From Apostichopus japonicus (taxonomy: Eukaryota; Echinodermata; Holothuroidea; Aspidochirotida; Stichopodidae): a DNA stretch of 64,000 bases. Shown here one piece after another: positions 22,125-60,288 of this stretch. The position numbers and the translations under genes were made by a program. The DNA is taken from positions 9,147,713 to 9,211,712 of the forward strand of contig NC_092574.1 in NCBI RefSeq assembly GCF_037975245.1, given 5' to 3'. Position 1 is the first letter of the stretch; every line of letters begins with the position of its first letter. Under the pieces are notes generated by a model. It was given only the letters and a program-made list of their open reading frames with translations, had not been told where the DNA came from and made no database searches.

Positions 22125-24189
22125 AAGAATTTTACAGCGTTAGAAGTAAGGAAGGCAGGTTGGCCATGGTTTTACTAGCTTTCACGTAAGCCTCTAACAC
22201 TTTTTAAATAGAAGAGGATACTTTGTTCAAATATGTGAGTGATTAATTGTATCAAGCATGTACAAGTTTGTAAGAATATGTTCAAAGCTTTACAAAAGTA
22301 AATCAGCCGAAGCGTGTTTAACTGGAGCCCGATTAATGTCAATAGTTAGTATGTAGCATGCAGCAGTCGTTAAAATATCTTAATCTCAACTCCTACCGCA
22401 CCAAAACCACTACCCAAAAAAAGGAAATACTTTCTTAAATTAGTGAAATATATGAAAGGTATGCAGTGGTGATGAAAAAACTATATAAAGACAGTATAAT
22501 AAATATAACTATTCACGTTGGTCAAACAGGTACACATGTAGCAGTTGCGGTTAGAGGTCATTACATGACATACCAAATTTGCAAGGACTAGATACTGTTT
22601 AGCAGACATGACAGCTGTTTAAAATTCTGATTTCTGATCTAATTCAGTGGCAAATTTAAATAGAGTTCAGTGTTCCATAAATCATAATCCTATATAAGTG
22701 AACAGATATATTCAATATAAGGTAAATCCAAATGATACCATTCAAGAAGTGAATCTATTTCGCAGATTTGATAATTCAGAGCACATAATCACATATTATC
22801 AGCGACCATTACCGTCAAAAATGCTAAATCAAGATATATTACACCAACAATTAAGGGTATTGCTAAATCAACCAACACATTTCTAACAAACGAAAAATTA
22901 AAATCGGAGTATTGGAATCAATCATAAACAAAGAGATATGAACTAAACAGTTTGCAATTAAAAAGTACGATTCGTTTCAATTTATCTTTTGAAAATAACT
23001 ATGATTTTTGTTTGTGGGTGTGTTTGTGTGTTGCAGTGGTGAGCAATTTAACCAACAGTTAATTGTTTTGGTCACCCAGTAAATTGAGCTTGCCCATTGC
23101 CCATCAACTAAACTATTTTGTTCAGGCAGTGAATTATCTTTACCACAAATTTTCATGTTCATATCAGGGATATGCTTAAAAGAAAGAAACAAAACATTCT
23201 TGTGTAACTCAAGTATGAAATTACTCTTTTCTATTTCCCTACAGGTATTATTCATGTAACGTGATATTACTTACTTAAAACTACTGCATATGTGATAACT
23301 AGCAACCTGGCAACACATTTCGGTATGTGATTGTGTTTAATATCGCTTTTGTCAACATGGCATATCACGTATATATCAAGTTGTCACTAACATTTTTGTG
23401 TTAAGTGAGATTAAAGTGATTGGGACCAGAGGACGTCACCAAAGTTTCAACGATAACAAATTATCCATAAAAATAAAAGTAGTTGTGTTAGTTATTATAT
23501 AATTATATATTTTACAATCATACAATAATACATAACGATGTGTGCTCTTTAATATCACAAGTAATTATATTTTTCTTTTATTAGTCTTGTTGGTTCATCA
23601 TTCACACCCATACATACACTGAGTTTTAGCCTATATCGCTCGCCCTATGGAATGACCAACATATAAGGGATCTTACTCGTTTTTCTTTGTATCAAATGAA
23701 GGTAAGTTTCGGACTGAAAGTCATCTTATTTTAAATTATATTTGCAATGAAAATTGACCGTTCGAGTTAGTGACTAACATTGTTATGGACATTTTGGTAT
23801 TGATATCTTTCTGAAGAAAATGGACCTATTTAAAAACTAATAATGTTTGATATATGAGAAAGGTCGGCATCTTTTCTCCGCATCAGTTTGAGAAGTTTTT
23901 TAAAAATCGCAATTTTCGGTCGAAATTTGATAAAACCACCAGGGCCTTTCGAACTGACTCAATTGTTTCGCCTGAAATGTCTTGATATTAAATGATGACA
24001 TAACGATTTGAATTTTCAATTTACACTGTTTTTCTGAAGAATATGGACCTATTTTGAACACTAATAATGTCTGAAACAAATTAAAGAGGTCGGCATCCGT
24101 TCTTCACATAATTTTGAGAAGATTTTAAAAATCGCAATTTTCGATCGATATTTAAGAAAAACCATAACACTCAATTCCAAAATAATTAA
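22125..24189. other. Intergenic region between LACTB-like gene and satellite
   Basis: This is AT-rich sequence with only short chance open frames. The last 400 bases contain a diverged direct duplication with a period of about 223 bases (about 23809-23925 and 24032-24150). It shares ATGGACCTATTT, ACTAATAATGT, GGTCGGCATC and AAAAATCGCAATTTTCG. This abuts the left border of the satellite and is different in sequence from it. Confidence 0.5.
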
Positions 24190-25308
24190 TATAAAGAATA
24201 TAAGTGCAAAATTGGGGAAAAAACCCTCTTTTCAGCCCCTCTCTTGTCCTCTCAGAAACACCCATCGACATTAATATTAGACGTGGAGTAGAAGAAACCC
24301 TTGCTGTTTTTGCCAAAATTGACCCGAAATCGAGATCGCCCAAATGACGTAACAGGAGGACATCGATGCTTAGGATCCCGAATCTGCAACTTCCAGGTCC
24401 ATATCTGTTTCCGTTCGGGAGATACGTGGTCCCAAAGGACCTGAAAGAAATACGTGTTCTTTATAAGTGCACAATTTGGAAAACCCCCTCTTTTCAGCCC
24501 CCTCTCTTGTCCTATCTGAATCACCCATCGACATTTAAATTAGACGTGGAGTAGAAGACACCCTTGTCTTTCTTATACACCAATTTCGTGTAATTATCTG
24601 ACCGGGAAAGGCTCTTTGTCCATATTATTTCTATTTGCGCCAAAAATAGGTGTTTTGTCTTGAAAAGTTAAAAAAGTACCTCTTTTTGGTACCCAATTCG
24701 AAATTAAACTTCAGATTCGTAATCAGCGTGTCGCGAACAATAGAAAACGGAAAACTTTTAGGGACAACAAAAGATTTTAATCCTTTGTTCGTCGTAAAAG
24801 TTATTCGGTCTTACTATTTTTGAGGTGAAAAAACTTTTTGTCGCAAAGGCGTTAAATGTGTATCTTTTATGGTAGTTCGCGACACGCTGATTACGAATCT
24901 GAAATTTATTTTCGAATTGGGTGTTGTGTGAGGGCAAAAAACCTGATTTAAAAAAGACCATAAGGGTACCTACCACTTGCAATTTTTGCCAAGATTGACC
25001 TAAACTTGATTTCGCCCAAATGACGTAACAGGGGGTAATCGATGCTCAGAATCCCAAATCTGCAACTCCCAGGTCCATATCTGCTTCCGTTCGGGAGATA
25101 CGTGGTCCCAAAGTACAAGATAAAAAACACGTGTTCTTTATAAGTGCACAATTTGGAAAACCCCCTCTTTTCAGCCCCCTCTATTGTCCTCTCTGATACA
25201 CCCATCGACATTTAAATTAGACGTAGAGTAGAAGACACCCTTGTCTTTGTTATACACCAATTTCGTGTAATTATCTGACCGGGAAAGGCTTTCTGTCCAT
25301 ATCATGTC
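24190..25308. repeat. Left border units of the satellite, divergent and deleted
   Basis: The first unit (about 24205-24470) consists of spacer only: the palindrome is deleted between CCCTTG and TTTTTGCC. The second unit keeps the palindrome but lacks about 70 bases of the inner left arm. Its right arm ends in GTGTTGTGTGAGGGC instead of the GGTACCAAAAAGAGG of core units. The spacer reads AAGATAAAAAACACGTG here against AAGATAGAAATACGTGACTG in the core. Confidence 0.85.
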
Positions 25309-28300
25309 TATTTGCGCCAAAAATAGGTGTTTTGTCATGCAAAGTTAAAAAAGTACCTCAATTTGGTACCCAATTTCAAAATAAACTTCAGATTCGTAAT
25401 CAGCGTGTCGCGAACTACCAGAAAAGATACATATTTATCGCCTTTGCGCCCTCTTATGACACTTTTTTCGCTCTGTTTGCAACTTCAGGCGAACAAAAGA
25501 AAAGCGAAAAACTTTTAGGGACAACAAAAGATTTTAATCCTTTGTTCGTCGTAAAAGTTTTTCGCTCTTCCTTTTTTTGACGTGAAAAAACTTGTTGTCG
25601 CCAAATCGATAAATGTGGATCTTTTCTGGTAGTTCGCGACACGCTGATTACGAATCTGAACTTTATTTTGGAATTGGGTACCAAAAGAGGTACTTTTTTC
25701 ACTTTTCAGACAAAACACCTATTTTTGGCGCAAATAAAAATTGCCAAAAATTGACCCAAAATCGATTTCGCCCAAAAGACGTAACAGGAAATAATCGATG
25801 CCCAGGAGTCCAAATCTGCAACTGTCAGGTCCATATCTGCTTCCGTTCGGGAGATACGTGGTCCCAAAGTACAAGATAGAAATACGTGACTGTTCTTTAT
25901 AAGTGCAAAATTTGGAAAACCCCCTCTTTTCAGCCCCCTCTCTTGTCCCCTCTGAAACACCCATCGACATTAAAATTAGACGTGAAGTAGAAGACACTCT
26001 TGTCTTTGTTATACACCAATTTCGTGTAATTATCTGACCGGGAAAGGCTTTCTGTCCATATCATGTCTATTTGCGCCAAAAATAGGTGTTTTGTCATGCA
26101 AAGTTAAAAAAGTACCTCAATTTGGTACCCAATTTCAAAATAAACTTCAGATTCGTAATCAGCGTGTCGCGAACTACCAGAAAAGATACATATTTATCGC
26201 CTTTGCGCCCTCTTATGACACTTTTTTCGCTCTGTTTGCAACTTCAGGCGAACAAAAGAAAAGCGAAAAACTTTTAGGGACAACAAAAGATTTTAATCCT
26301 TTGTTCGTCGTAAAAGTTTTTCGCTCTTCCTTTTTTTGACGTGAAAAAACTTGTTGTCGCCAAATCGATAAATGTGGATCTTTTCTGGTAGTTCGCGACA
26401 CGCTGATTACGAATCTGAACTTTATTTTGGAATTGGGTACCAAAAAGAGGTACTTTTTTCACTTTTCAGACAAAACACCTATTTTTGGCGCAAATAAAAA
26501 TTGACCCAAAATCGATTTCGCCCAAAAGACGTAACAGGAAATAATCGATGCTCAGGAGTCCAAATCTGCAACTGTCAGGTCCATATCTGCTTCCGTTCGG
26601 GAGATACGTGGTCCCAAAGTACAAGATAGAAATACGTGACTGTTCTTTATAAGTGCAAAATTTGGAAAACCCCCTCTTTTCAGCCCCCTCTCTTGTCCCC
26701 TCTGAAACACCCATCGACATTAAAATTAGACGTGAAGTAGAAGACACTCTTGTCTTTGTTATACACCAATTTCGTGTAATTATCTGACCGGGAAAGGCTT
26801 TCTGTCCATATCATGTCTATTTGCGCCAAAAATAGGTGTTTTGTCATGCAAAGTTAAAAAAGTACCTCAATTTGGTACCCAATTTCAAAATAAACTTCAG
26901 ATTCGTAATCAGCGTGTCGCGAACTACCAGAAAAGATACATATTTATCGCCTTTGCGCCCTCTTATGACACTTTTTTCGCTCTGTTTGCAACTTCAGGCG
27001 AACAAAAGAAAAGCGAAAAACTTTTAGGGACAACAAAAGATTTTAATCCTTTGTTCGTCGTAAAAGTTTTTCGCTCTTCCTTTTTTTGACGTGAAAAAAC
27101 TTGTTGTCGCCAAATCGATAAATGTGGATCTTTTCTGGTAGTTCGCGACACGCTGATTACGAATCTGAACTTTATTTTGGAATTGGGTACCAAAAAGAGG
27201 TACTTTTTTCACTTTTCAGACAAAACACCTATTTTTGGCGCAAATAAAAATTGACAAAAATTGACCCAAAATCGATTTCGCCCAAAAGACGTAACAGGAA
27301 ATAATCGATGCCCAGGAGTCCAAATCTGCAACTGTCAGGTCCATATCTGCTTCCGTTCGGGAGATACGTGGTCCCAAAGTACAAGATAGAAATACGTGAC
27401 TGTTCTTTATAAGTGCAAAATTTGGAAAACCCCCTCTTTTCAGCCCCCTCTCTTGTCCCCTCTGAAACACCCATCGACATTAAAATTAGACGTGAAGTAG
27501 AAGACACTCTTGTCTTTGTTATACACCAATTTCGTGTAATTATCTGACCGGGAAAGGCTTTCTGTCCATATCATGTCTATTTGCGCCAAAAATAGGTGTT
27601 TTGTCATGCAAAGTTAAAAAAGTACCTCAATTTGGTACCCAATTTCAAAATAAACTTCAGATTCGTAATCAGCGTGTCGCGAACTACCAGAAAAGATACA
27701 TATTTATCGCCTTTGCGCCCTCTTATGACACTTTTTTCGCTCTGTTTGCAACTTCAGGCGAACAAAAGAAAAGCGAAAAACTTTTAGGGACAACAAAAGA
27801 TTTTAATCCTTTGTTCGTCGTAAAAGTTTTTCGCTCTTCCTTTTTTTGACGTGAAAAAACTTGTTGTCGCCAAATCGATAGATGTGGATCTTTTCTGGTA
27901 GTTCGCGACACGCTGATTACGAATCTGAACTTTATTTTGGAATTGGGTACCAAAAAGAGGTACTTTTTTCACTTTTCAGACAAAACACCTATTTTTGGCG
28001 CAAATAAAAATTGCCAAAAATTGACCCAAAATCGATTTCGCCCAAAAGACGTAACAGGAAATAATCGATGCCCAGGAGTCCAAATCTGCAACTGTCAGGT
28101 CCATATCTGCTTCCGTTCGGGAGATACGTGGTCCCAAAGTACAAGATAGAAATACGTGACTGTTCTTTATAAGTGCAAAATTTGGAAAACCCCCTCTTTT
28201 CAGCCCCCTCTCTTGTCCCCTCTGAAACACCCATCGACATTAAAATTAGACGTGAAGTAGAAGACACTCTTGTCTTTGTTATACACCAATTTCGTGTAAT

Positions 28301-31300
28301 TATCTGACCGGGAAAGGCTTTCTGTCCATATCATGTCTATTTGCGCCAAAAATAGGTGTTTTGTCATGCAAAGTTAAAAAAGTACCTCAATTTGGTACCC
28401 AATTTCAAAATAAACTTCAGATTCGTAATCAGCGTGTCGCGAACTACCAGAAAAGATACATATTTATCGCCTTTGCGCCCTCTTATGACACTTTTTTCGC
28501 TCTGTTTGCAACTTCAGGCGAACAAAAGAAAAGCGAAAAACTTTTAGGGACAACAAAAGATTTTAATCCTTTGTTCGTCGTAAAAGTTTTTCGCTCTTCC
28601 TTTTTTTGACGTGAAAAAACTTGTTGTCGCCAAATCGATAAATGTGGATCTTTTCTGGTAGTTCGCGACACGCTGATTACGAATCTGAACTTTATTTTGG
28701 AATTGGGTACCAAAAAGAGGTACTTTTTTCACTTTTCAGACAAAACACCTATTTTTGGCGCAAATAAAAATTGCCAAAAATTGACCCAAAATCGATTTCG
28801 CCCAAAAGACGTAACAGGAAATAATCGATGCCCAGGAGTCCAAATCTGCAACTGTCAGGTCCATATCTGCTTCCGTTCGGGAGATACGTGGTCCCAAAGT
28901 ACAAGATAGAAATACGTGACTGTTCTTTATAAGTGCAAAATTTGGAAAACCCCCTCTTTTCAGCCCCCTCTCTTGTCCCCTCTGAAACACCCATCGACAT
29001 TAAAATTAGACGTGAAGTAGAAGACACTCTTGTCTTTGTTATACACCAATTTCGTGTAATTATCTGACCGGGAAAGGCTTTCTGTCCATATCATGTCTAT
29101 TTGCGCCAAAAATAGGTGTTTTGTCATGCAAAGTTAAAAAAGTACCTCAATTTGGTACCCAATTTCAAAATAAACTTCAGATTCGTAATCAGCGTGTCGC
29201 GAACTACCAGAAAAGATACATATTTATCGCCTTTGCGCCCTCTTATGACACTTTTTTCGCTCTGTTTGCAACTTCAGGCGAACAAAAGAAAAGCGAAAAA
29301 CTTTTAGGGACAACAAAAGATTTTAATCCTTTGTTCGTCGTAAAAGTTTTTCGCTCTTCCTTTTTTTGACGTGAAAAAACTTGTTGTCGCCAAATCGATA
29401 AATGTGGATCTTTTCTGGTAGTTCGCGACACGCTGATTACGAATCTGAACTTTATTTTGGAATTGGGTACCAAAAAGAGGTACTTTTTTCACTTTTCAGA
29501 CAAAACACCTATTTTTGGCGCAAATAAAAATTGCCAAAAATTGACCCAAAATCGATTTCGCCCAAAAGACGTAACAGGAAATAATCGATGCCCAGGAGTC
29601 CAAATCTGCAACTGTCAGGTCCATATCTGCTTCCGTTCGGGAGATACGTGGTCCCAAAGTACAAGATAGAAATACGTGACTGTTCTTTATAAGTGCAAAA
29701 TTTGGAAAACCCCCTCTTTTCAGCCCCCTCTCTTGTCCCCTCTGAAACACCCATCGACATTAAAATTAGACGTGAAGTAGAAGACACTCTTGTCTTTGTT
29801 ATACACCAATTTCGTGTAATTATCTGACCGGGAAAGGCTTTCTGTCCATATCATGTCTATTTGCGCCAAAAATAGGTGTTTTGTCATGCAAAGTTAAAAA
29901 AGTACCTCAATTTGGTACCCAATTTCAAAATAAACTTCAGATTCGTAATCAGCGTGTCGCGAACTACCAGAAAAGATACATATTTATCGCCTTTGCGCCC
30001 TCTTATGACACTTTTTTCGCTCTGTTTGCAACTTCAGGCGAACAAAAGAAAAGCGAAAAACTTTTAGGGACAACAAAAGATTTTAATCCTTTGTTCGTCG
30101 TAAAAGTTTTTCGCTCTTCCTTTTTTTGACGTGAAAAAACTTGTTGTCGCCAAATCGATAAATGTGGATCTTTTCTGGTAGTTCGCGACACGCTGATTAC
30201 GAATCTGAACTTTATTTTGGAATTGGGTACCAAAAAGAGGTACTTTTTTCACTTTTCAGACAAAACACCTATTTTTGGCGCAAATAAAAATTGCCAAAAA
30301 CTGACCCAAAATCGATTTCGCCCAAAAGACGTAACAGGAAATAATCGATGCCCAGGAGTCCAAATCTGCAACTGTCAGGTCCATATCTGCTTCCGTTCGG
30401 GAGATACGTGGTCCCAAAGTACAAGATAGAAATACGTGACTGTTCTTTATAAGTGCAAAATTTGGAAAACCCCCTCTTTTCAGCCCCCTCTCTTGTCCCC
30501 TCTGAAACACCCATCGACATTAAAATTAGACGTGAAGTAGAAGACACTCTTGTCTTTGTTATACACCAATTTCGTGTAATTATCTGACCGGGAAAGGCTT
30601 TCTGTCCATATCATGTCTATTTGCGCCAAAAATAGGTGTTTTGTCATGCAAAGTTAAAAAAGTACCTCAATTTGGTACCCAATTTCAAAATAAACTTCAG
30701 ATTCGTAATCAGCGTGTCGCGAACTACCAGAAAAGATACATATTTATCGCCTTTGCGCCCTCTTATGACACTTTTTTCGCTCTGTTTGCAACTTCAGGCG
30801 AACAAAAGAAAAGCGAAAAACTTTTAGGGACAACAAAAGATTTTAATCCTTTGTTCGTCGTAAAAGTTTTTCGCTCTTCCTTTTTTTGACGTGAAAAAAC
30901 TTGTTGTCGCCAAATCGATAAATGTGGATCTTTTCTGGTAGTTCGCGACACGCTGATTACGAATCTGAACTTTATTTTGGAATTGGGTACCAAAAAGAGG
31001 TACTTTTTTCACTTTTCAGACAAAACACCTATTTTTGGCGCAAATAAAAATTGCCAAAAATTGACCCAAAATCGATTTCGCCCAAAAGACGTAACAGGAA
31101 ATAATCGATGCCCAGGAGTCCAAATCTGCAACTGTCAGGTCCATATCTGCTTCCGTTCGGGAGATACGTGGTCCCAAAGTACAAGATAGAAATACGTGAC
31201 TGTTCTTTATAAGTGCAAAATTTGGAAAACCCCCTCTTTTCAGCCCCCTCTCTTGTCCCCTCTGAAACACCCATCGACATTAAAATTAGACGTGAAGTAG

Positions 31301-34300
31301 AAGACACTCTTGTCTTTGTTATACACCAATTTCGTGTAATTATCTGACCGGGAAAGGCTTTCTGTCCATATCATGTCTATTTGCGCCAAAAATAGGTGTT
31401 TTGTCATGCAAAGTTAAAAAAGTACCTCAATTTGGTACCCAATTTCAAAATAAACTTCAGATTCGTAATCAGCGTGTCGCGAACTACCAGAAAAGATACA
31501 TATTTATCGCCTTTGCGCCCTCTTATGACACTTTTTTCGCTCTGTTTGCAACTTCAGGCGAACAAAAGAAAAGCGAAAAACTTTTAGGGACAACAAAAGA
31601 TTTTAATCCTTTGTTCGTCGTAAAAGTTTTTCGCTCTTCCTTTTTTTGACGTGAAAAAACTTGTTGTCGCCAAATCGATAAATGTGGATCTTTTCTGGTA
31701 GTTCGCGACACGCTGATTACGAATCTGAACTTTATTTTGGAATTGGGTACCAAAAAGAGGTACTTTTTTCACTTTTCAGACAAAACACCTATTTTTGGCG
31801 CAAATAAAAATTGCCAAAAATTGACCCAAAATCGATTTCGCCCAAAAGACGTAACAGGAAATAATCGATGCCCAGGAGTCCAAATCTGCAACTGTCAGGT
31901 CCATATCTGCTTCCGTTCGGGAGATACGTGGTCCCAAAGTACAAGATAGAAATACGTGACTGTTCTTTATAAGTGCAAAATTTGGAAAACCCCCTCTTTT
32001 CAGCCCCCTCTCTTGTCCCCTCTGAAACACCCATCGACATTAAAATTAGACGTGAAGTAGAAGACACTCTTGTCTTTGTTATACACCAATTTCGTGTAAT
32101 TATCTGACCGGGAAAGGCTTTCTGTCCATATCATGTCTATTTGCGCCAAAAATAGGTGTTTTGTCATGCAAAGTTAAAAAAGTACCTCAATTTGGTACCC
32201 AATTTCAAAATAAACTTCAGATTCGTAATCAGCGTGTCGCGAACTACCAGAAAAGATACATATTTATCGCCTTTGCGCCCTCTTATGACACTTTTTTCGC
32301 TCTGTTTGCAACTTCAGGCGAACAAAAGAAAAGCGAAAAACTTTTAGGGACAACAAAAGATTTTAATCCTTTGTTCGTCGTAAAAGTTTTTCGCTCTTCC
32401 TTTTTTTGACGTGAAAAAACTTGTTGTCGCCAAATCGATAAATGTGGATCTTTTCTGGTAGTTCGCGACACGCTGATTACGAATCTGAACTTTATTTTGG
32501 AATTGGGTACCAAAAAGAGGTACTTTTTTCACTTTTCAGACAAAACACCTATTTTTGGCGCAAATAAAAATTGACAAAAATTGACCCAAAATCGATTTCG
32601 CCCAAAAGACGTAACAGGAAATAATCGATGCCCAGGAGTCCAAATCTGCAACTGTCAGGTCCATATCTGCTTCCGTTCGGGAGATACGTGGTCCCAAAGT
32701 ACAAGATAGAAATACGTGACTGTTCTTTATAAGTGCAAAATTTGGAAAACCCCCTCTTTTCAGCCCCCTCTCTTGTCCCCTCTGAAACACCCATCGACAT
32801 TAAAATTAGACGTGAAGTAGAAGACACTCTTGTCTTTGTTATACACCAATTTCGTGTAATTATCTGACCGGGAAAGGCTTTCTGTCCATATCATGTCTAT
32901 TTGCGCCAAAAATAGGTGTTTTGTCATGCAAAGTTAAAAAAGTACCTCAATTTGGTACCCAATTTCAAAATAAACTTCAGATTCGTAATCAGCGTGTCGC
33001 GAACTACCAGAAAAGATACATATTTATCGCCTTTGCGCCCTCTTATGACACTTTTTTCGCTCTGTTTGCAACTTCAGGCGAACAAAAGAAAAGCGAAAAA
33101 CTTTTAGGGACAACAAAAGATTTTAATCCTTTGTTCGTCGTAAAAGTTTTTCGCTCTTCCTTTTTTTGACGTGAAAAAACTTGTTGTCGCCAAATCGATA
33201 AATGTGGATCTTTTCTGGTAGTTCGCGACACGCTGATTACGAATCTGAACTTTATTTTGGAATTGGGTACCAAAAAGAGGTACTTTTTTCACTTTTCAGA
33301 CAAAACACCTATTTTTGGCGCAAATAAAAATTGCCAAAAACTGACCCAAAATCGATTTCGCCCAAAAGACGTAACAGGAAATAATCGATGCCCAGGAGTC
33401 CAAATCTGCAACTGTCAGGTCCATATCTGCTTCCGTTCGGGAGATACGTGGTCCCAAAGTACAAGATAGAAATACGTGACTGTTCTTTATAAGTGCAAAA
33501 TTTGGAAAACCCCCTCTTTTCAGCCCCCTCTCTTGTCCCCTCTGAAACACCCATCGACATTAAAATTAGACGTGAAGTAGAAGACACTCTTGTCTTTGTT
33601 ATACACCAATTTCGTGTAATTATCTGACCGGGAAAGGCTTTCTGTCCATATCATGTCTATTTGCGCCAAAAATAGGTGTTTTGTCATGCAAAGTTAAAAA
33701 AGTACCTCAATTTGGTACCCAATTTCAAAATAAACTTCAGATTCGTAATCAGCGTGTCGCGAACTACCAGAAAAGATACATATTTATCGCCTTTGCGCCC
33801 TCTTATGACACTTTTTTCGCTCTGTTTGCAACTTCAGGCGAACAAAAGAAAAGCGAAAAACTTTTAGGGACAACAAAAGATTTTAATCCTTTGTTCGTCG
33901 TAAAAGTTTTTCGCTCTTCCTTTTTTTGACGTGAAAAAACTTGTTGTCGCCAAATCGATAAATGTGGATCTTTTCTGGTAGTTCGCGACACGCTGATTAC
34001 GAATCTGAACTTTATTTTGGAATTGGGTACCAAAAAGAGGTACTTTTTTCACTTTTCAGACAAAACACCTATTTTTGGCGCAAATAAAAATTGCCAAAAA
34101 TTGACCCAAAATCGATTTCGCCCAAAAGACGTAACAGGAAATAATCGATGCCCAGGAGTCCAAATCTGCAACTGTCAGGCCCATATCTGCTTCCGTTCGG
34201 GAGATACGTGGTCCCAAAGTACAAGATAGAAATACGTGACTGTTCTTTATAAGTGCAAAATTTGGAAAACCCCCTCTTTTCAGCCCCCTCTCTTGTCCCC

Positions 34301-37300
34301 TCTGAAACACCCATCGACATTAAAATTAGACGTGAAGTAGAAGACACTCTTGTCTTTGTTATACACCAATTTCGTGTAATTATCTGACCGGGAAAGGCTT
34401 TCTGTCCATATCATGTCTATTTGCGCCAAAAATAGGTGTTTTGTCATGCAAAGTTAAAAAAGTACCTCAATTTGGTACCCAATTTCAAAATAAACTTCAG
34501 ATTCGTAATCAGCGTGTCGCGAACTACCAGAAAAGATACATATTTATCGCCTTTGCGCCCTCTTATGACACTTTTTTCGCTCTGTTTGCAACTTCAGGCG
34601 AACAAAAGAAAAGCGAAAAACTTTTAGGGACAACAAAAGATTTTAATCCTTTGTTCGTCGTAAAAGTTTTTCGCTCTTCCTTTTTTTGACGTGAAAAAAC
34701 TTGTTGTCGCCAAATTGATAAATGTGGATCTTTTCTGGTAGTTCGCGACACGCTGATTACGAATCTGAACTTTATTTTGGAATTGGGTACCAAAAAGAGG
34801 TACTTTTTTCACTTTTCAGACAAAACACCTATTTTTGGCGCAAATAAAAATTGCCAAAAATTGACCCAAAATCGATTTCGCCCAAAAGACGTAACAGGAA
34901 ATAATCGATGCCCAGGAGTCCAAATCTGCAACTGTCAGGTCCATATCTGCTTCCGTTCGGGAGATACGTGGTCCCAAAGTACAAGATAGAAATACGTGAC
35001 TGTTCTTTATAAGTGCAAAATTTGGAAAACCCCCTCTTTTCAGCCCCCTCTCTTGTCCCCTCTGAAACACCCATCGACATTAAAATTAGACGTGAAGTAG
35101 AAGACACTCTTGTCTTTGTTATACACCAATTTCGTGTAATTATCTGACCGGGAAAGGCTTTCTGTCCATATCATGTCTATTTGCGCCAAAAATAGGTGTT
35201 TTGTCATGCAAAGTTAAAAAAGTACCTCAATTTGGTACCCAATTTCAAAATAAACTTCAGATTCGTAATCAGCGTGTCGCGAACTACCAGAAAAGATACA
35301 TATTTATCGCCTTTGCGCCCTCTTATGACACTTTTTTCGCTCTGTTTGCAACTTCAGGCGAACAAAAGAAAAGCGAAAAACTTTTAGGGACAACAAAAGA
35401 TTTTAATCCTTTGTTCGTCGTAAAAGTTTTTCGCTCTTCCTTTTTTTGACGTGAAAAAACTTGTTGTCGCCAAATCGATAAATGTGGATCTTTTCTGGTA
35501 GTTCGCGACACGCTGATTACGAATCTGAACTTTATTTTGGAATTGGGTACCAAAAAGAGGTACTTTTTTCACTTTTCAGACAAAACACCTATTTTTGGCG
35601 CAAATAAAAATTGCCAAAAATTGACCCAAAATCGATTTCGCCCAAAAGACGTAACAGGAAATAATCGATGCCCAGGAGTCCAAATCTGCAACTGTCAGGT
35701 CCATATCTGCTTCCGTTCGGGAGATACGTGGTCCCAAAGTACAAGATAGAAATACGTGACTGTTCTTTATAAGTGCAAAATTTGGAAAACCCCCTCTTTT
35801 CAGCCCCCTCTCTTGTCCCCTCTGAAACACCCATCGACATTAAAATTAGACGTGAAGTAGAAGACACTCTTGTCTTTGTTATACACCAATTTCGTGTAAT
35901 TATCTGACCGGGAAAGGCTTTCTGTCCATATCATGTCTATTTGCGCCAAAAATAGGTGTTTTGTCATGCAAAGTTAAAAAAGTACCTCAATTTGGTACCC
36001 AATTTCAAAATAAACTTCAGATTCGTAATCAGCGTGTCGCGAACTACCAGAAAAGATACATATTTATCGCCTTTGCGCCCTCTTATGACACTTTTTTCGC
36101 TCTGTTTGCAACTTCAGGCGAACAAAAGAAAAGCGAAAAACTTTTAGGGACAACAAAAGATTTTAATCCTTTGTTCGTCGTAAAAGTTTTTCGCTCTTCC
36201 TTTTTTTGACGTGAAAAAACTTGTTGTCGCCAAATCGATAAATGTGGATCTTTTCTGGTAGTTCGCGACACGCTGATTACGAATCTGAACTTTATTTTGG
36301 AATTGGGTACCAAAAAGAGGTACTTTTTTCACTTTTCAGACAAAACACCTATTTTTGGCGCAAATAAAAATTGCCAAAAATTGACCCAAAATCGATTTCG
36401 CCCAAAAGACGTAACAGGAAATAATCGATGCCCAGGAGTCCAAATCTGCAACTGTCAGGTCCATATCTGCTTCCGTTCGGGAGATACGTGGTCCCAAAGT
36501 ACAAGATAGAAATACGTGACTGTTCTTTATAAGTGCAAAATTTGGAAAACCCCCTCTTTTCAGCCCCCTCTCTTGTCCCCTCTGAAACACCCATCGACAT
36601 TAAAATTAGACGTGAAGTAGAAGACACTCTTGTCTTTGTTATACACCAATTTCGTGTAATTATCTGACCGGGAAAGGCTTTCTGTCCATATCATGTCTAT
36701 TTGCGCCAAAAATAGGTGTTTTGTCATGCAAAGTTAAAAAAGTACCTCAATTTGGTACCCAATTTCAAAATAAACTTCAGATTCGTAATCAGCGTGTCGC
36801 GAACTACCAGAAAAGATACATATTTATCGCCTTTGCGCCCTCTTATGACACTTTTTTCGCTCTGTTTGCAACTTCAGGCGAACAAAAGAAAAGCGAAAAA
36901 CTTTTAGGGACAACAAAAGATTTTAATCCTTTGTTCGTCGTAAAAGTTTTTCGCTCTTCCTTTTTTTGACGTGAAAAAACTTGTTGTCGCCAAATCGATA
37001 AATGTGGATCTTTTCTGGTAGTTCGCGACACGCTGATTACGAATCTGAACTTTATTTTGGAATTGGGTACCAAAAAGAGGTACTTTTTTCACTTTTCAGA
37101 CAAAACACCTATTTTTGGCGCAAATAAAAATTGACCCAAAATCGATTTCGCCCAAAAGACGTAACAGGAAATAATCGATGCCCAGGAGTCCAAATCTGCA
37201 ACTGTCAGGTCCATATCTGCTTCCGTTCGGGAGATACGTGGTCCCAAAGTACAAAATAGAAATACGTGACTGTTCTTTATAAGTGCAAAATTTGGAAAAC

Positions 37301-49300: not shown

Positions 49301-52300
49301 AAATAATCGATGCCCAGGAGTCCAAATCTGCAACTGTCAGGTCCATATCTGCTTCCGTTCGGGAGATACGTGGTCCCAAAGTACAAGATAGAAATACGTG
49401 ACTGTTCTTTATAAGTGCAAAATTTGGAAAACCCCCTCTTTTCAGCCCCCTCTCTTGTCCCCTCTGAAACACCCATCGACATTAAAATTAGACGTGAAGT
49501 AGAAGACACTCTTGTCTTTGTTATACACCAATTTCGTGTAATTATCTGACCGGGAAAGGCTTTCTGTCCATATCATGTCTATTTGCGCCAAAAATAGGTG
49601 TTTTGTCATGCAAAGTTAAAAAAGTACCTCAATTTGGTACCCAATTTCAAAATAAACTTCAGATTCGTAATCAGCGTGTCGCGAACTACCAGAAAAGATA
49701 CATATTTATCGCCTTTGCGCCCTCTTATGACACTTTTTTCGCTCTGTTTGCAACTTCAGGCGAACAAAAGAAAAGCGAAAAACTTTTAGGGACAACAAAA
49801 GATTTTAATCCTTTGTTCGTCGTAAAAGTTTTTCGCTCTTCCTTTTTTTGACGTGAAAAAACTTGTTGTCGCCAAATCGATAAATGTGGATCTTTTCTGG
49901 TAGTTCGCGACACGCTGATTACGAATCTGAACTTTATTTTGGAATTGGGTACCAAAAAGAGGTACTTTTTTCACTTTTCAGACAAAACACCTATTTTTGG
50001 CGCAAATAAAAATTGACCCAAAATCGATTTCGCCCAAAAGACGTAACAGGAAATAATCGATGCCCAGGAGTCCAAATCTGCAACTGTCAGGTCCATATCT
50101 GCTTCCGTTCGGGAGATACGTGGTCCCAAAGTACAAGATAGAAATACGTGACTGTTCTTTATAAGTGCAAAATTTGGAAAACCCCCTCTTTTCAGCCCCC
50201 TCTCTTGTCCCCTCTGAAACACCCATCGACATTAAAATTAGACGTGAAGTAGAAGACACTCTTGTCTTTGTTATACACCAATTTCGTGTAATTATCTGAC
50301 CGGGAAAGGCTTTCTGTCCATATCATGTCTATTTGCGCCAAAAATAGGTGTTTTGTCATGCAAAGTTAAAAAAGTACCTCAATTTGGTACCCAATTTCAA
50401 AATAAACTTCAGATTCGTAATCAGCGTGTCGCGAACTACCAGAAAAGATACATATTTATCGCCTTTGCGCCCTCTTATGACACTTTTTTCGCTCTGTTTG
50501 CAACTTCAGGCGAACAAAAGAAAAGCGAAAAACTTTTAGGGACAACAAAAGATTTTAATCCTTTGTTCGTCGTAAAAGTTTTTCGCTCTTCCTTTTTTTG
50601 ACGTGAAAAAACTTGTTGTCGCCAAATCGATAAATGTGGATCTTTTCTGGTAGTTCGCGACACGCTGATTACGAATCTAAACTTTATTTTGGAATTGGGT
50701 ACCAAAAAGAGGTACTTTTTTCACTTTTCAGACAAAACACCTATTTTTGGCGCAAATAAAAATTGCCAAAAATTGACCCAAAATCGATTTCGCCCAAAAG
50801 ACGTAACAGGAAATAATCGATGCTCAGGAGTCCAAATCTGCAACTGTCAGGTCCATATCTGCTTCCGTTCGGGAGATACGTGGTCCCAAAGTACAAGATA
50901 GAAATACGTGACTGTTCTTTATAAGTGCAAAATTTGGAAAACCCCCTCTTTTCAGCCCCCTCTCTTGTCCCCTCTGAAACACCCATCGACATTAAAATTA
51001 GACGTGAAGTAGAAGACACTCTTGTCTTTGTTATACACCAATTTCGTGTAATTATCTGACCGGGAAAGGCTTTCTGTCCATATCATGTCTATTTGCGCCA
51101 AAAATAGGTGTTTTGTCATGCAAAGTTAAAAAAGTACCTCAATTTGGTACCCAATTTCAAAATAAACTTCAGATTCGTAATCAGCGTGTCGCGAACTACC
51201 AGAAAAGATACATATTTATCGCCTTTGCGCCCTCTTATGACACTTTTTTCGCTCTGTTTGCAACTTCAGGCGAACAAAAGAAAAGCGAAAAACTTTTAGG
51301 GACAACAAAAGATTTTAATCCTTTGTTCGTCGTAAAAGTTTTTCGCTCTTCCTTTTTTTGACGTGAAAAAACTTGTTGTCGCCAAATCGATAAATGTGGA
51401 TCTTTTCTGGTAGTTCGCGACACGCTGATTACGAATCTGAACTTTATTTTGGAATTGGGTACCAAAAAGAGGTACTTTTTTCACTTTTCAGACAAAACAC
51501 CTATTTTTGGCGCAAATAAAAATTGCCAAAAATTGACCCAAAATCGATTTCGCCCAAAAGACGTAACAGGAAATAATCGATGCTCAGGAGTCCAAATCTG
51601 CAACTGTCAGGTCCATATCTGCTTCCGTTCGGGAGATACGTGGTCCCAAAGTACAAGATAGAAATACGTGACTGTTCTTTATAAGTGCAAAATTTGGAAA
51701 ACCCCCTCTTTTCAGCCCCCTCTCTTGTCCCCTCTGAAACACCCATCGACATTAAAATTAGACGTGAAGTAGAAGACACTCTTGTCTTTGTTATACACCA
51801 ATTTCGTGTAATTATCTGACCGGGAAAGGCTTTCTGTCCATATCATGTCTATTTGCGCCAAAAATAGGTGTTTTGTCATGCAAAGTTAAAAAAGTACCTC
51901 AATTTGGTACCCAATTTCAAAATAAACTTCAGATTCGTAATCAGCGTGTCGCGAACTACCAGAAAAGATACATATTTATCGCCTTTGCGCCCTCTTATGA
52001 CACTTTTTTCGCTCTGTTTGCAACTTCAGGCGAACAAAAGAAAAGCGAAAAACTTTTAGGGACAACAAAAGATTTTAATCCTTTGTTCGTCGTAAAAGTT
52101 TTTCGCTCTTCCTTTTTTTGACGTGAAAAAACTTGTTGTCGCCAAATCGATAAATGTGGATCTTTTCTGGTAGTTCGCGACACGCTGATTACGAATCTGA
52201 ACTTTATTTTGGAATTGGGTGCCAAAAAGAGGTACTTTTTTCACTTTTCAGACAAAACACCTATTTTTGGCGCAAATAAAAATTGCCAAAAATTGACCCA

Positions 52301-55300
52301 AAATCGATTTCGCCCAAAAGACGTAACAGGAAATAATCGATGCCCAGGAGTCCAAATCTGCAACTGTCAGGTCCATATCTGCTTCCGTTCGGGAGATACG
52401 TGGTCCCAAAGTACAAGATAGAAATACGTGACTGTTCTTTATAAGTGCAAAATTTGGAAAACCCCCTCTTTTCAGCCCCCTCTCTTGTCCCCTCTGAAAC
52501 ACCCATCGACATTAAAATTAGACGTGAAGTAGAAGACACTCTTGTCTTTGTTATACACCAATTTCGTGTAATTATCTGACCGGGAAAGGCTTTCTGTCCA
52601 TATCATGTCTATTTGCGCCAAAAATAGGTGTTTTGTCATGCAAAGTTAAAAAAGTACCTCAATTTGGTACCCAATTTCAAAATAAACTTCAGATTCGTAA
52701 TCAGCGTGTCGCGAACTACCAGAAAAGATACATATTTATCGCCTTTGCGCCCTCTTATGACACTTTTTTCGCTCTGTTTGCAACTTCAGGCGAACAAAAG
52801 AAAAGCGAAAAACTTTTAGGGACAACAAAAGATTTTAATCCTTTGTTCGTCGTAAAAGTTTTTCGCTCTTCCTTTTTTTGACGTGAAAAAACTTGTTGTC
52901 GCCAAATCGATAAATGTGGATCTTTTCTGGTAGTTCGCGACACGCTGATTACGAATCTGAACTTTATTTTGGAATTGGGTGCCAAAAAGAGGTACTTTTT
53001 TCACTTTTCAGACAAAACACCTATTTTTGGCGCAAATAAAAATTGCCAAAAATTGACCCAAAATCGATTTCGCCCAAAAGACGTAACAGGAAATAATCGA
53101 TGCCCAGGAGTCCAAATCTGCAACTGTCAGGTCCATATCTGCTTCCGTTCGGGAGATACGTGGTCCCAAAGTACAAGATAGAAATACGTGACTGTTCTTT
53201 ATAAGTGCAAAATTTGGAAAACCCCCTCTTTTCAGCCCCCTCTCTTGTCCCCTCTGAAACACCCATCGACATTAAAATTAGACGTGAAGTAGAAGACACT
53301 CTTGTCTTTGTTATACACCAATTTCGTGTAATTATCTGACCGGGAAAGGCTTTCTGTCCATATCATGTCTATTTGCGCCAAAAATAGGTGTTTTGTCATG
53401 CAAAGTTAAAAAAGTACCTCAATTTGGTACCCAATTTCAAAATAAACTTCAGATTCGTAATCAGCGTGTCGCGAACTACCAGAAAAGATACATATTTATC
53501 GCCTTTGCGCCCTCTTATGACACTTTTTTTGCTCTGTTTGCAACTTCAGGCGAACAAAAGAAAAGCGAAAAACTTTTAGGGACAACAAAAGATTTTAATC
53601 CTTTGTTCGTCGTAAAAGTTTTTCGCTCTTCCTTTTTTTGACGTGAAAAAACTTGTTGTCGCCAAATCGATAAATGTGGATCTTTTCTGGTAGTTCGCCG
53701 ACACGCTGATTACGAATCTGAACTTTATTTTGGAATTGGGTACCAAAAAGAGGTACTTTTTTCACTTTTCAGACAAAACACCTATTTTTGGCGCAAATAA
53801 AAATTGCCAAAAATTGACCCAAAATCGATTTCGCCCAAAAGACGTAACAGGAAATAATCGATGCTCAGGAGTCCAAATCTGCAACTGTCAGGTCCATATC
53901 TGCTTCCGTTCGGGAGATACGTGGTCCCAAAGTACAAGATAGAAATACGTGACTGTTCTTTATAAGTGCAAAATTTGGAAAACCCCCTCTTTTCAGCCCC
54001 CTCTCTTGTCCCCTCTGAAACACCCATCGACATTAAAATTAGACGTGAAGTAGAAGACACTCTTGTCTTTGTTATACACCAATTTCGTGTAATTATCTGA
54101 CCGGGAAAGGCTTTCTGTCCATATCATGTCTATTTGCGCCAAAAATAGGTGTTTTGTCATGCAAAGTTAAAAAAGTACCTCAATTTGGTACCCAATTTCA
54201 AAATAAACTTCAGATTCGTAATCAGCGTGTCGCGAACTACCAGAAAAGATACATATTTATCGCCTTTGCGCCCTCTTATGACACTTTTTTCGCTCTGTTT
54301 GCAACTTCAGGCGAACAAAAGAAAAGCGAAAAACTTTTAGGGACAACAAAAGATTTTAATCCTTTGTTCGTCGTAAAAGTTTTTCGCTCTTCCTTTTTTT
54401 GACGTGAAAAAACTTGTTGTCGCCAAATCGATAAATGTGGATCTTTTCTGGTAGTTCGCCGACACGCTGATTACGAATCTGAACTTTATTTTGGAATTGG
54501 GTACCAAAAAGAGGTACTTTTTTCACTTTTCAGACAAAACACCTATTTTTGGCGCAAATAAAAATTGCCAAAAATTGACCCAAAATCGATTTCGCCCAAA
54601 AGACGTAACAGGAAATAATCGATGCTCAGGAGTCCAAATCTGCAACTGTCAGGTCCATATCTGCTTCCGTTCGGGAGATACGTGGTCCCAAAGTACAAGA
54701 TAGAAATACGTGACTGTTCTTTATAAGTGCAAAATTTGGAAAACCCCCTCTTTTCAGCCCCCTCTCTTGTCCCCTCTGAAACACCCATCGACATTAAAAT
54801 TAGACGTGAAGTAGAAGACACTCTTGTCTTTGTTATACACCAATTTCGTGTAATTATCTGACCGGGAAAGGCTTTCTGTCTATATCATGTCTATTTGCGC
54901 CAAAAATAGGTGTTTTGTCATGCAAAGTTAAAAAAGTACCTCAATTTGGTACCCAATTTCAAAATAAACTTCAGATTCGTAATCAGCGTGTCGCGAACTA
55001 CCAGAAAAGATACATATTTATCGCCTTTGCGCCCTCTTATGACACTTTTTTCGCTCTGTTTGCAACTTCAGGCGAACAAAAGAAAAGCGAAAAACTTTTA
55101 GGGACAACAAAAGATTTTAATCCTTTGTTCGTCGTAAAAGTTTTTCGCTCTTCCTTTTTTTGACGTGAAAAAACTTGTTGTCGCCAAATCGATAAATGTG
55201 GATCTTTTCTGGTAGTTCGCGACACGCTGATTACGAATCTGAACTTTATTTTGGAATTGGGTGCCAAAAAGAGGTACTTTTTTCACTTTTCAGACAAAAC

Positions 55301-58300
55301 ACCTATTTTTGGCGCAAATAAAAATTGCCAAAAATTGACCCAAAATCGATTTCGCCCAAAAGACGTAACAGGAAATAATCGATGCTCAGGAGTCCAAATC
55401 TGCAACTGTCAGGTCCATATCTGCTTCCGTTCGGGAGATACGTGGTCCCAAAGTACAAGATAGAAATACGTGACTGTTCTTTATAAGTGCAAAATTTGGA
55501 AAACCCCCTCTTTTCAGCCCCCTCTCTTGTCCCCTCTGAAACACCCATCGACATTAAAATTAGACGTGAAGTAGAAGACACTCTTGTCTTTGTTATACAC
55601 CAATTTCGTGTAATTATCTGACCGGGAAAGGCTTTCTGTCCATATCATGTCTATTTGCGCCAAAAATAGGTGTTTTGTCATGCAAAGTTAAAAAAGTACC
55701 TCAATTTGGTACCCAATTTCAAAATAAACTTCAGATTCGTAATCAGCGTGTCGCGAACTACCAGAAAAGATACATATTTATCGCCTTTGCGCCCTCTTAT
55801 GACACTTTTTTCGCTCTGTTTGCAACTTCAGGCGAACAAAAGAAAAGCGAAAAACTTTTAGGGACAACAAAAGATTTTAATCCTTTGTTCGTCGTAAAAG
55901 TTTTTCGCTCTTCCTTTTTTTGACGTGAAAAAACTTGTTGTCGCCAAATCGATAAATGTGGATCTTTTCTGGTAGTTCGCGACACGCTGATTACGAATCT
56001 GAACTTTATTTTAGAATTGGGTACCAAAAAGAGGTACTTTTTTCACTTTTCAGACAAAACACCTATTTTTGGCGCAAATAAAAATTGCCAAAAATTGACC
56101 CAAAATCGATTTCGCCCAAAAGACGTAACAGGAAATAATCGATGCCCAGGAGTCCAAATCTGCAACTGTCAGGTCCATATCTGCTTCCGTTCGGGAGATA
56201 CGTGGTCCCAAAGTACAAGATAGAAATACGTGACTGTTCTTTATAAGTGCAAAATTTGGAAAACCCCCTCTTTTCAGCCCCCTCTCTTGTCCCCTCTGAA
56301 ACACCCATCGACATTAAAATTAGACGTGAAGTAGAAGACACTCTTGTCTTTGTTATACACCAATTTCGTGTAATTATCTGACCGGGAAAGGCTTTCTGTC
56401 CATATCATGTCTATTTGCGCCAAAAATAGGTGTTTTGTCATGCAAAGTTAAAAAAGTACCTCAATTTGGTACCCAATTTCAAAATAAACTTCAGATTCGT
56501 AATCAGCGTGTCGCGAACTACCAGAAAAGATACATATTTATCGCCTTTGCGCCCTCTTATGACACTTTTTTCGCTCAGTTTGCAACTTCAGGCGAACAAA
56601 AGAAAAGCGAAAAACTTTTAGGGACAACAAAAGATTTTAATCCTTTGTTCGTCGTAAAAGTTTTTCGCTCTTCCTTTTTTTGACGTGAAAAAACTTGTTG
56701 TCGCCAAATCGATAAATGTGGATCTTTTCTGGTAGTTCGCGACACGCTGATTACGAATCTGAACTTTATTTTAGAATTGGGTACCAAAAAGAGGTTTTTT
56801 TTTCACTTTTCAGACAAAACACCTATTTTTGGCGCAAATAAAAATTGCCAAAAATTGACCCAAAATCGATTTCGCCCAAAAGACGTAACAGGAAATAATC
56901 GATGCTCAGGAGTCCAAATCTGCAACTGCCAGGTCCATATCTGCTTCCGTTCGGGAGATACGTGGTCCCAAAGTACAAGATAGAAATACGTGACTGTTCT
57001 TTATAAGTGCAAAATTTGGAAAACCCCCTCTTTTCAGCCCCCTCTCTTGTCCCCTCTGAAACACCCATCGACATTAAAATTAGACGTGAAGCAGAAGACA
57101 CTCTTGTCTTTGTTATACACCAATTTCGTGTAATTATCTGACCGGGAAAGGCTTTCTGTCCATATCATGTCTATTTGCGCCAAAAATAGGTGTTTTGTCA
57201 TGCAAAGTTAAAAAAGTACCTCAATTTGGTACCCAATTTCAAAATAAACTTCAGATTCGTAATCAGCGTGTCGCGAACTACCAGAAAAGATACATATTTA
57301 TCGCATTTGCGCCCTATTATGACACTTTTTTCGCTCAGTTTGCAACTTCAGGCGAACAAAAGAAAAGCGAAAAACTTTTAGGGACAACAAAAGATTTTAA
57401 TCCTTTGTTCGTCGTAAAAGTTTTTCGCTCTTCCTTTTTTTGACGTGAAAAAACTTGTTGTCGCCAAATCGATAAATGTGGATCTTTTCTGGTAGTTCGC
57501 GACACGCTGATTACGAATCTGAACTTTATTTTAGAATTGGGTACCAAAAAGAGGTACTTTTTTCACTTTTCAGACAAAACACCTATTTTTGGCGCAAATA
57601 AAAATTGCCAAAAATTGACCCAAAATCGATTTCGCCCAAAAGACGTAACAGGAAATAATCGATGCCCAGGAGTCCAAATCTGCAACTGTCAGGTCCATAT
57701 CTGCTTCCGTTCGGGAGATACGTGGTCCCAAAGTACAAGATAGAAATACGTGACTGTTCTTTATAAGTGCAAAATTTGGAAAACCCCCTCTTTTCAGCCC
57801 CCTCTCTTGTCCCCTCTGAAACACCCATCGACATTAAAATTAGACGTGAAGTAGAAGACACTCTTGTCTTTGTTATACACCAATTTCGTGTAATTATCTG
57901 ACCGGGAAAGGCTTTCTGTCCATATCATGTCTATTTGCGCCAAAAATAGGTGTTTTGTCATGCAAAGTTAAAAAAGTACCTCAATTTGGTACCCAATTTC
58001 AAAATAAACTTCAGATTCGTAATCAGCGTGTCGCGAACTACCAGAAAAGATACATATTTATCGCCTTTGCGCCCTCTTATGACACTTTTTTCGCTCTGTT
58101 TGCAACTTCAGGCGAACAAAAGAAAAGCGAAAAACTTTTAGGGACAACAAAAGATTTTAATCCTTTGTTCGTCGTAAAAGTTTTTCGCTCTTCCTTTTTT
58201 TGACGTGAAAAAACTTGTTGTCGCCAAATCGATAAATGTGGATCTTTTCTGGTAGTTCGCGACACGCTGATTACGAATCTGAACTTTATTTTGGAATTGG

Positions 58301-59447
58301 GTACCAAAAAGAGGTACTTTTTTCACTTTTCAGACAAAACACCTATTTTTGGCGCAAATAAAAATTGCCAAAAATTGACCCAAAATCGATTTCGCCCAAA
58401 AGACGTAACAGGAAATAATCGATGCTCAGGAGTCCAAATCTGCAACTGTCAGGTCCATATCTGCTTCCGTTCGGGAGATACGTGGTCCCAAAGTACAAGA
58501 TAGAAATACGTGACTGTTCTTTATAAGTGCAAAATTTGGAAAACCCCCTCTTTTCAGCCCCCTCTCTTGTCCCCTCTGAAACACCCATCGACATTAAAAT
58601 TAGACGTGAAGTAGAAGACACTCTTGTCTTTGTTATACACCAATTTCGTGTAATTATCTGACCGGGAAAGGCTTTCTGTCCATATCATGTCTATTTGCGC
58701 CAAAAATAGGTGTTTTGTCATGCAAAGTTAAAAAAGTACCTCAATTTGGTACCCAATTTCAAAATAAACTTCAGATTCGTAATCAGCGTGTCGCGAACTA
58801 CCAGAAAAGATACATATTTATCGCCTTTGCGCCCTATTATGACACTTTTTTCGCTCAGTTTGCAACTTCAGGCGAACAAAAGAAAAGCGAAAAACTTTTA
58901 GGGACAACAAAAGATTTTAATCCTTTGTTCGTCGTAAAAGTTTTTCGCTCTTCCTTTTTTTGACGTGAAAAAACTTGTTGTCGCCAAATCGATAAATGTG
59001 GATCTTTTCTGGTAGTTCGCGACACGCTGATTACGAATCTGAACTTTATTTTAGAATTGGGTACCAAAAAGAGGTACTTTTTTCACTTTTCAGACAAAAC
59101 ACCTATTTTTGGCGCAAATAAAAATTGCCAAAAATTGACCCAAAATCGATTTCGCCCAAAAGACGTAACAGGAAATAATCGATGCTCAGGAGTCCAAATC
59201 TGCAACTGCCAGGTCCATATCTGCTTCCGTTCGGGAGATACGTGGTCCCAAAGTACAAGATAAAAACACGTGTTCTTTATAAGTGCACAATTTGGAAAAC
59301 CCCCTCTTTTCAGCCCCATCTATTGTCCTCTCTGATGCACCCATCGACATTTAAATTAGACGTAGAGTAGAAGACACCCTTGTCTTTGTTATAGACCAAT
59401 TTCGTGTAATTATCTGACCGGGAAAGGATTTTTGTCTATATTATTTC
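25309..59447. repeat. Homogenised core of the satellite (45 units)
   Basis: Units 2-33 (to about 50.3 kb) are nearly invariant, with single-base changes in a few. Units 34-45 carry several shared variants, for example GATGCTCAGG for GATGCCCAGG, GGGTGCC for GGGTACC, TTTTAGAATTGG for TTTTGGAATTGG and GCTCAGTTTGC for GCTCTGTTTGC. The 750-base units (starting near 26068, 36698, 38968, 42758, 44269 and 49580) lack ten bases between two AAAATTG copies just right of the palindrome. Confidence 0.95.
27578..28006. repeat. Representative 429-bp nested palindrome of one satellite unit
   Basis: The outer arms begin TATTTGCGCC and end GGCGCAAATA; about 140 bases on each side pair at roughly 90%. This includes a perfect block of about 42 bp containing CAGCGTGTCGCGAACTACC. 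Inside, GCGAAAAACTTTTA (27773-27786) pairs perfectly with 27821-27834. The centre is the near-palindrome GATTTTAATC (27799-27808). The same structure recurs in every core unit. Confidence 0.9.
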
Positions 59448-60288
59448 TATTTGCGCCAAAAATAGGTGTTTTGTCTTTCAAAGTTAAAAAAGTACCTCAT
59501 TTTGGTACCCAATTCCAAAATAAAGTTCAGATTCGTAATCAGCGTGTCGCGAACTACCAGAAAAGATACACATTTATTGCCTTTGCGCCCTCTCATGACA
59601 CTTTTTCGCTCAGTTTGCAACTTCAGATGAACAATAGAAAACGGAAAAAATTTTAAGGACAACAAAAGATTTTAAACCTTTGTTCGTCGTAAAAGTTTTT
59701 CGGTCTTACTTTTTTTTGAGGTGAAAAAACTTTTTGTCGCAAACGCGATAAATGTGTATTTTTCTGGTAGTTCGCGACACGCTGATTACGAATCTGAAAT
59801 TTATTTTCGAATTGGGTGTTGTGTGGGGGCGTGGGGAAAAAAAAAATCTGATTTAAAAAAAACCCCGGAAGGGTACCCACCACTTGCAGTTTTTGCCAAA
59901 ATTGACCCAAAATCGATTTCGCCCAAATGACGTAACAGGAGAACATCGATGCTCAGGATCCCAAATCTGCAACTCCCAGGTCCATATCTGCTTCCGTTCG
60001 GGAGATACGTGGTCCCAAAGTACAAGATAAAAATACGTGTTCTTTATAAGTGCACAATTTGGAAAACCCCCTCTTTTCAGCCCCCTCTATTGTCCTCTCT
60101 GATACACCCATCGACATTTAAATTAGACGTAGAGTAGTCTTTGTTGTCTTTGTTATACACCAATTTCGTGTAATTATCTGACCCGGAAAGGCTTCTTGCC
60201 TATATAATTTCTATATTTTCATAAATCATAAATCAGTAGTTTTTCCCCCTTGCACGCCCCCTCACAACACCCAATTCCAAAATAAACT
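59263..60288. repeat. Right border units of the satellite, divergent
   Basis: From about 59263 the spacer switches to the border type seen at the left end (AAGATAAAA-type). One palindrome unit follows (59448-59830) whose right arm ends in GTGTTGTGTGGGGGCGTGGGG, then a spacer. The last fragment (about 60225-60288) has a left arm of the alternative type, CACGCCCCCTCACAACACCC. The array ends inside that arm after AATAAACTC. Confidence 0.85.

Follow-up and report, generated by a model that had tools for sequence, protein, structure and literature searches.

Satellites derived from dispersed repeats are a well-known kind, and the head-to-tail array of foldback units described here, at positions 24199-60288 (+ strand) of a 64,000-nucleotide stretch of the sea cucumber Apostichopus japonicus, is a new family among them relative to the published descriptions searched. 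This whole stretch is called the window; it corresponds to C14:9147713-9211712, the contigs of the assembly being named C1, C2 etc. and the fetched loci L0xx. A foldback repeat is reportedly already known from an echinoderm, namely the TU elements of sea urchin. One close described system is Tetris (TIR-220) of Drosophila virilis, in which, according to the accessible part of PMC4079207 (which also mentions a sea urchin foldback), a dispersed foldback-structured element yields satellite arrays, as here. In Tetris as there described, however, the repeats are contained within the inverted repeats, and target-site duplications of 8-10 bp flank the element. Here the monomer comprises the entire unit with its palindrome, and a duplication was not found.

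Three further systems share part of this architecture. The Cg_HINE Helentrons of Crassostrea gigas, as far as the available text of PMC7492417 goes, carry short satellite-like arrays, sometimes two in succession, within larger dispersed multi-copy elements. Similar arrangements are found here, but the end features of Helentrons were not located, the segment exceeds 9.5 kb and it contains pieces of long interspersed nuclear elements (LINEs). For satellites derived from miniature inverted-repeat transposable elements (MITEs), such as Xstir and miDNA4 in Xenopus and Angel in zebrafish, the sections consulted of a review (PMC12628747) describe single copies, tandem arrays and mixed structures coexisting for one inverted-repeat unit. 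The same states coexist here, although no MITE superfamily, terminal inverted repeat (TIR) or duplication could be assigned. The macro-dyad satellites of Tribolium (PMC13081366, in part) are likewise dyad-symmetric and hairpin-capable, but their symmetry spans tens of kilobases and here it is confined within each monomer.

A literature search at title and abstract level found no description of this satellite, and the word 'satellite' is absent from the main text of the A. japonicus assembly paper (PMC10344927) in the part available. The interest of the family is that one echinoderm module is caught as a single copy in a dispersed segment, in short arrays, in a long homogenised array, and in palindrome-reduced and palindrome-less variants. 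With all these states in one chromosome-level genome, the idea that hairpins promote the amplification of satellites can be put to the test.

The array and its palindromic monomer

The window sequence contains no N. A 15-bp spacer anchor occurs 48 times and delimits 47 units in the array, of which 34 are 760 bp long, five 750 bp and three 761 bp, with one each of 677, 751, 756, 759 and 767 bp. The 45 core units (m01-m45; 25134-59272, + strand), mostly of 760 or 750 bp, have at most eight mismatches each against a 760-bp consensus; six of them carry a 10- or 11-column gap and a few have gaps of one to four columns. With gap columns excluded, the 42 core units m03-m44 have a mean pairwise identity of 99.80% (minimum 98.95%), and 245 of their 861 pairs are identical. 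An initial sequence-only reading, which set the array at 24190-60288, had described 45 near-identical units, a monomer of 750/760 bp with a majority palindrome, and near-identity over a long stretch. Each part is borne out, by the anchor spacing and the low mismatch count across the core, by a palindrome of 429 of the 760 bp and by the identity values, respectively.

Both edges of the array are graded in divergence. On the left, a palindrome-less unit with a 263-bp period, comprising spacer modules S1 and S2 only (24199-24456, + strand), precedes the first complete unit (24457-25133, + strand; 677 bp), which has 88 mismatches. On the right, the last complete unit (59273-60039, + strand; 767 bp) has 90 mismatches and is followed by a partial unit (60040-60288, + strand) ending within a type-A left arm, about 15 bp from the ends of three solo copies discussed below (L036, L037 and L040). 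The two divergent complete units each have a left outer arm of type B and a right one of type A; all 45 core units were classified by outer arm and loop as BB_short. Variants are ordered along the array, with ten-base indels in six units and a single-nucleotide polymorphism that clusters towards the right. A near-identical interior with divergent edge units is the usual mark of unequal exchange, and the array thus fits homogenisation by this process. Its head-to-tail tandem units with concerted evolution are those of satellite DNA, and among the matches listed it is the largest array of 760-bp units.

The palindrome occupies consensus positions 176-604 and consists of 140-bp arms that are 92% identical (128 identities in 139 aligned columns) around a 150-bp loop. 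In one typical unit it lies at 28338-28766 (429 bp), with the left arm at 28338-28477 (140 bp, + strand), the loop, which contains a smaller inner hairpin, at 28478-28627 (150 bp) and the right arm at 28628-28766 (139 bp, - strand). A single 438-bp stretch was folded as DNA, with a predicted energy of -163.8 kcal/mol as against -46.3 +/- 4.3 for 100 shuffles (z = -27). Two types of outer arm, A and B, were distinguished. The 125 units read comprise 91 BB, 12 AB, 7 BA and 6 AA, with one side untyped in nine, and the matched A/A and B/B pairs imply, on this typing, at least one past inverted copying of one outer arm onto the other side.

Such copying was also considered as an ongoing process of arm-to-arm conversion, and was rejected. 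Among 1540 cells (140 pairs in 11 array representatives), 1460 are unchanged, 76 are changed on one side and two on both sides, with gaps in two; about one two-sided change would be expected if the arms varied independently. As the changes are almost all one-sided and occur at the independent rate, selection for pairing is disfavoured.

A dispersed family and its larger repeated segment

Genome-wide searches covered the whole assembly (35 contigs, 671,581,487 bases). They returned 536 occurrences of a spacer 23-mer (up to one mismatch), 480 of a type-B outer-arm motif (up to two mismatches) and 1044 of an inner-arm motif (up to one mismatch), the reversed-pattern controls giving 0 in each case. 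Array places are known for about 100 sites per motif, exact matches first, and the sizes given are lower bounds. Among viral contigs, none matches the spacer 23-mer exactly.

A unit-length query found at least 163 matches (12 of 525 candidates scored), with arrays on C14, C9 and C5. The palindrome-less unit as query found at least 97 (39 of 851 candidates scored) and added an array on C12 and short loci on C4, C5, C14, C17, C19 and C22; nine full-length 261-bp relatives of that unit, 86% alike, lie in the C12 array among the matches listed. Several arrays of one family are therefore present in one genome, as in satellite DNA, and the family takes the form of arrays with periods of 598, 745/261, 760 and 913-930 bp together with single copies, to a total of hundreds of related units. 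Complete units at ten related loci on C14, C9 and C5 are 84-96% like the window consensus, and copies within the related arrays are 92-99% alike. Arrays of the 760 class occupy C14:5.33-5.35 Mb (at least 26 units) and C14:5.93-5.95 Mb (at least 19 units); units of 913 bp are found at C5:9.10-9.12 Mb and of about 930 bp at C5:12.50 Mb. The C12 array (C12:23664753-23693377) mixes 745-bp and palindrome-less 261-bp units, the latter recurring at 1006, 2493 and 3239 bp, and once at 6938 bp.

A single-arm type of 598 bp was read directly in L032 (C5:8.02 Mb). At C5:4.10-4.14 Mb a ladder of about 598 bp extends for about 33.6 kb, and all 28 of the exact arms among the matches listed are on the + strand. 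The regularity of the ladder suggests that this array too is made of single-arm units, with the proviso that mismatched arms would escape the listing. If so, some 33.6 kb were assembled in tandem without a palindrome, and the palindrome is probably needless for amplification.

The long units (913-930 bp) differ from those of the window by about 175 bp of extra sequence in the left arm and loop. This extra piece, used as a query, gave 468 candidates, of which 40 were scored, on eleven contigs. Fourteen of these 40 loci were fetched, and in all 14 the unit sits within longer shared DNA, L055 holding the right part only. The proposal that the arrays are seeded by a dispersed, multi-copy segment gains support from this result. 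The loci fall into group 1 (L043-L048), with at least two complete or partial copies of the unit per locus, and group 2 (L049-L056); long flanking sequence is common to the members of each, L055 sharing little on the left. The unit of L054 has its arms in the order A-left/B-right.

Around the module, two composite segments, X (C2) and Y (C22), have an identity of 96.7% in 5510 columns; further right it is 95.3% in 3603 columns. The shared segment is longer than 9.5 kb. On their left side the composites have a palindromic minisatellite, and besides the foldback unit they hold a tandem array of 161-bp repeats and a 49-bp minisatellite. They also contain antisense LINE pieces, X 5008-6373 being 80% like L025 581-1978; Pfam recognizes Exo_endo_phos_2 in the L025 piece (E 2.8e-16) and RVT_1 in the related L024 (E 3e-16). 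A further piece of X matches SRP68 (PF16969, E 3.7e-9).

At eight of 12 loci the foldback units are followed on the right, at a distance of up to about 1 kb, by a tandem array of 152-163-bp repeats, and none is present in the fetched flank at the other four; the repeat was read at L010:3858-6501 and L058:1-1183. With its A-box- and B-box-like motifs, as we take them to be, the repeat has a tRNA-like look. Its identification as a tRNA was nevertheless rejected: Rfam gave nothing at E up to 0.1 for L058:1-1300 and nothing at gathering scores for 10 loci, and ARAGORN called none at 13 loci.

Probable origin of the array and rival explanations

The window array is likely to be one locus of this dispersed satellite family, grown from a module of the larger repeated segment and then amplified and homogenised locally. 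We infer the following direction of change. The ancestral unit was probably the long form of about 913-930 bp, with the order S1 - P - left arm - extra loop piece - loop - right arm - S2, and would have resided as a module inside the larger repeated segments. The module would then have been duplicated in tandem at interstitial loci, mostly on C14 and C5 among the matches listed. Tandem copies would have lost about 175 bp of the loop and gained an outer arm of type B on each side, before amplification and homogenisation by unequal exchange, gene conversion or the reinsertion of circles. In the window the outcome would be a core of 45 homogeneous units bordered by older, divergent ones.

Several points weigh against this origin. 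The segment runs past all the sequence examined, so that any account of how it spreads would be tentative. The flanks of the window array are only briefly similar to those of other family loci, and for this array we infer a composite ancestry. The 598-bp array at C5:4.10 Mb is known from exact motif matches. Furthermore, the near-constant ends of the three solo copies exceed what plain satellite breakage would give, and leave room for a specific mobilisation step.

These solo copies speak for the tandemly amplified foldback transposon proposed by the sequence-only reading, in which the palindrome would be a non-autonomous DNA transposon, mobilised and then amplified. In the one-unit copies L036, L037 and L040, both ends fall at nearly one place in the left arm, to within some 20 bp. 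The flanks match one another in no case, those of L036 and L037 being unrelated, and about 700 bp to the right of L040 there is a copy of the 161-bp repeat. The unit does possess long inverted repeats (140-bp arms, 92%), and a palindrome-less unit exists, although by eye the latter is equally well explained by a deletion at a short shared word. A target-site duplication, however, is not above chance at any of the three solos (control fractions 0.20, 0.21 and 0.54), whose ends are uncertain by about 20 bp. No transposase was found among nine open reading frames (ORFs) of the composites compared with Pfam, the matching ones being the LINE and SRP68 pieces, and Tandem Repeats Finder (minimum score 50, longest period 500) found no short internal tandem repeats in the arms in 24199-60288. 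About two arm motifs occur per spacer motif (1044 versus 536), which is the ratio to be expected where palindrome and spacer for the most part move as one, and nothing points to a large pool of arms lacking the spacer; the existence of one-arm and no-arm units means that this ratio allows for some free arms. The proposal thus stands as far as the satellite and its foldback monomers are concerned; a transposon origin was not shown, the evidence leans against the palindrome as a free element, and we consider this origin improbable. Shared ends without duplications might reflect a circular intermediate, descent from one ancestral copy, or fragility of a site within the arm.

Two of the remaining rivals look to the wider segment or to the hairpin itself, and a third to the assembly. 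It is unlikely, if somewhat less so, that the array is the central repeat array of a non-autonomous Helitron/Helentron of the HINE type, as in oysters. The dispersed segment does contain two consecutive kinds of tandem array, as in elements described in the portion available of PMC7492417, and a fragment of a host gene, SRP68. Conserved sequence also flanks the foldback arrays at many loci, but these flanks are long and carry LINE pieces. The antisense LINE pieces within a shared segment of more than 9.5 kb do not favour a Helentron; moreover, the long-range copies look like segmental duplications, and neither the element ends nor subTIRs nor a 3' palindrome could be placed in a segment that continues past the sequence examined. 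A functional hairpin array, centromeric or a source of small RNA and held by selection, is very improbable. Its strong predicted fold (one unit folded) is set against arm changes that are almost all one-sided, at the rate of independent arms, and against a single-arm type that apparently forms an array of similar length. No Rfam family scored above gathering in 28000-30300 of the window, and the array gave only hairpin-like matches far below that score. Judged by the pairing count and Rfam, function is not evident and the array is probably non-functional repeat DNA. An ordinary HiFi read is shorter than a 36-kb array, and an assembler could have inflated the copy number or identity; the copy count may therefore be wrong. 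That the array itself is such an artefact is hardly credible, given a gapless window with ordered internal variants and graded edges, arrays of the same family at many other loci, and PacBio HiFi contigs as reported in the part available of PMC10344927.

SRP68 fragments near chromosome ends and the flanks of the window array

At least 143 pieces match the SRP68 fragment of the composites (150 scored of 160 candidates), and the host SRP68 gene may be among them. This C-terminal fragment recurs every 170-240 kb near several chromosome ends. At left ends the pieces are on the - strand: six at C20:0.285-1.248 Mb and two each at C21:0.21-0.38, C11:0.14-0.38 and C14:0.16-0.39 Mb. At right ends they are on the + strand, seven at C19:31.22-32.35 Mb and two at C4:29.26-29.48 Mb. 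Exceptions are a piece on the - strand at C19:31.011 Mb and the more internal pieces of C11, C14 and C21, which are on either strand. The spacing and orientation look like those of a giant subtelomeric repeat unit with one orientation relative to the telomere. A wider scheme is possible, though we hold it only tentatively: the foldback module would reside in these giant units of about 170-240 kb, mostly in the same orientation to the telomere, and its escape would seed interstitial satellites like that of the window, the outer arms being rewritten as matched A/A and B/B pairs by copying across the hairpin. This subtelomeric lead could matter more than the satellite itself. A mid-chromosome cluster of the SRP68 fragment with the foldback module, at intervals of about 120-490 kb, was also seen at C12:14.83-17.31 Mb.

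The array was originally placed within 2 kb of two intact genes, which holds in part. On the left there is indeed a gene, LACTB-like, with exon pieces at 17865-22114 (+ strand): 17865-18107 matches the Pfam family Beta-lactamase (E 5.6e-20), and 20801-21058 and 21695-22114 match LACTB chains (E 3.7e-6 and 0.0016). As these pieces reach 22114, the gene ends about 2.1 kb from the array. On the right, one ORF was tried (62362-62547), and neither Pfam (E up to 0.1) nor PDB (E up to 1) gave a match.

The left flank at 23806-24137 (+ strand) resembles the flank of the array L034 (C14:14.695 Mb), where the two shared stretches, 23806-23912 (107 bp, 82%) and 23967-24137 (171 bp, 85%), lie in one stretch beside the array. 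It also contains direct repeats of 52 bp and 38 bp, about 226 bp apart. No array of the 152-163-bp repeat is present in the 24.2-kb left or the 3.7-kb right flank of the window array. A 276-bp dispersed repeat at 61394-61669 is about 85-91% like copies within the composite segments. Elsewhere in the window, 15781-15852 (- strand) gives a tRNA match above the Rfam gathering score (36.5 bits) that is not called by ARAGORN, and is perhaps a tRNA-derived short interspersed nuclear element. Finally, the COX1 of a 16,099-bp contig can be translated correctly under the echinoderm mitochondrial code, and on another contig, at C29:14745-31219, COX1 occurs in fragments, perhaps as rearranged or nuclear mitochondrial sequence.

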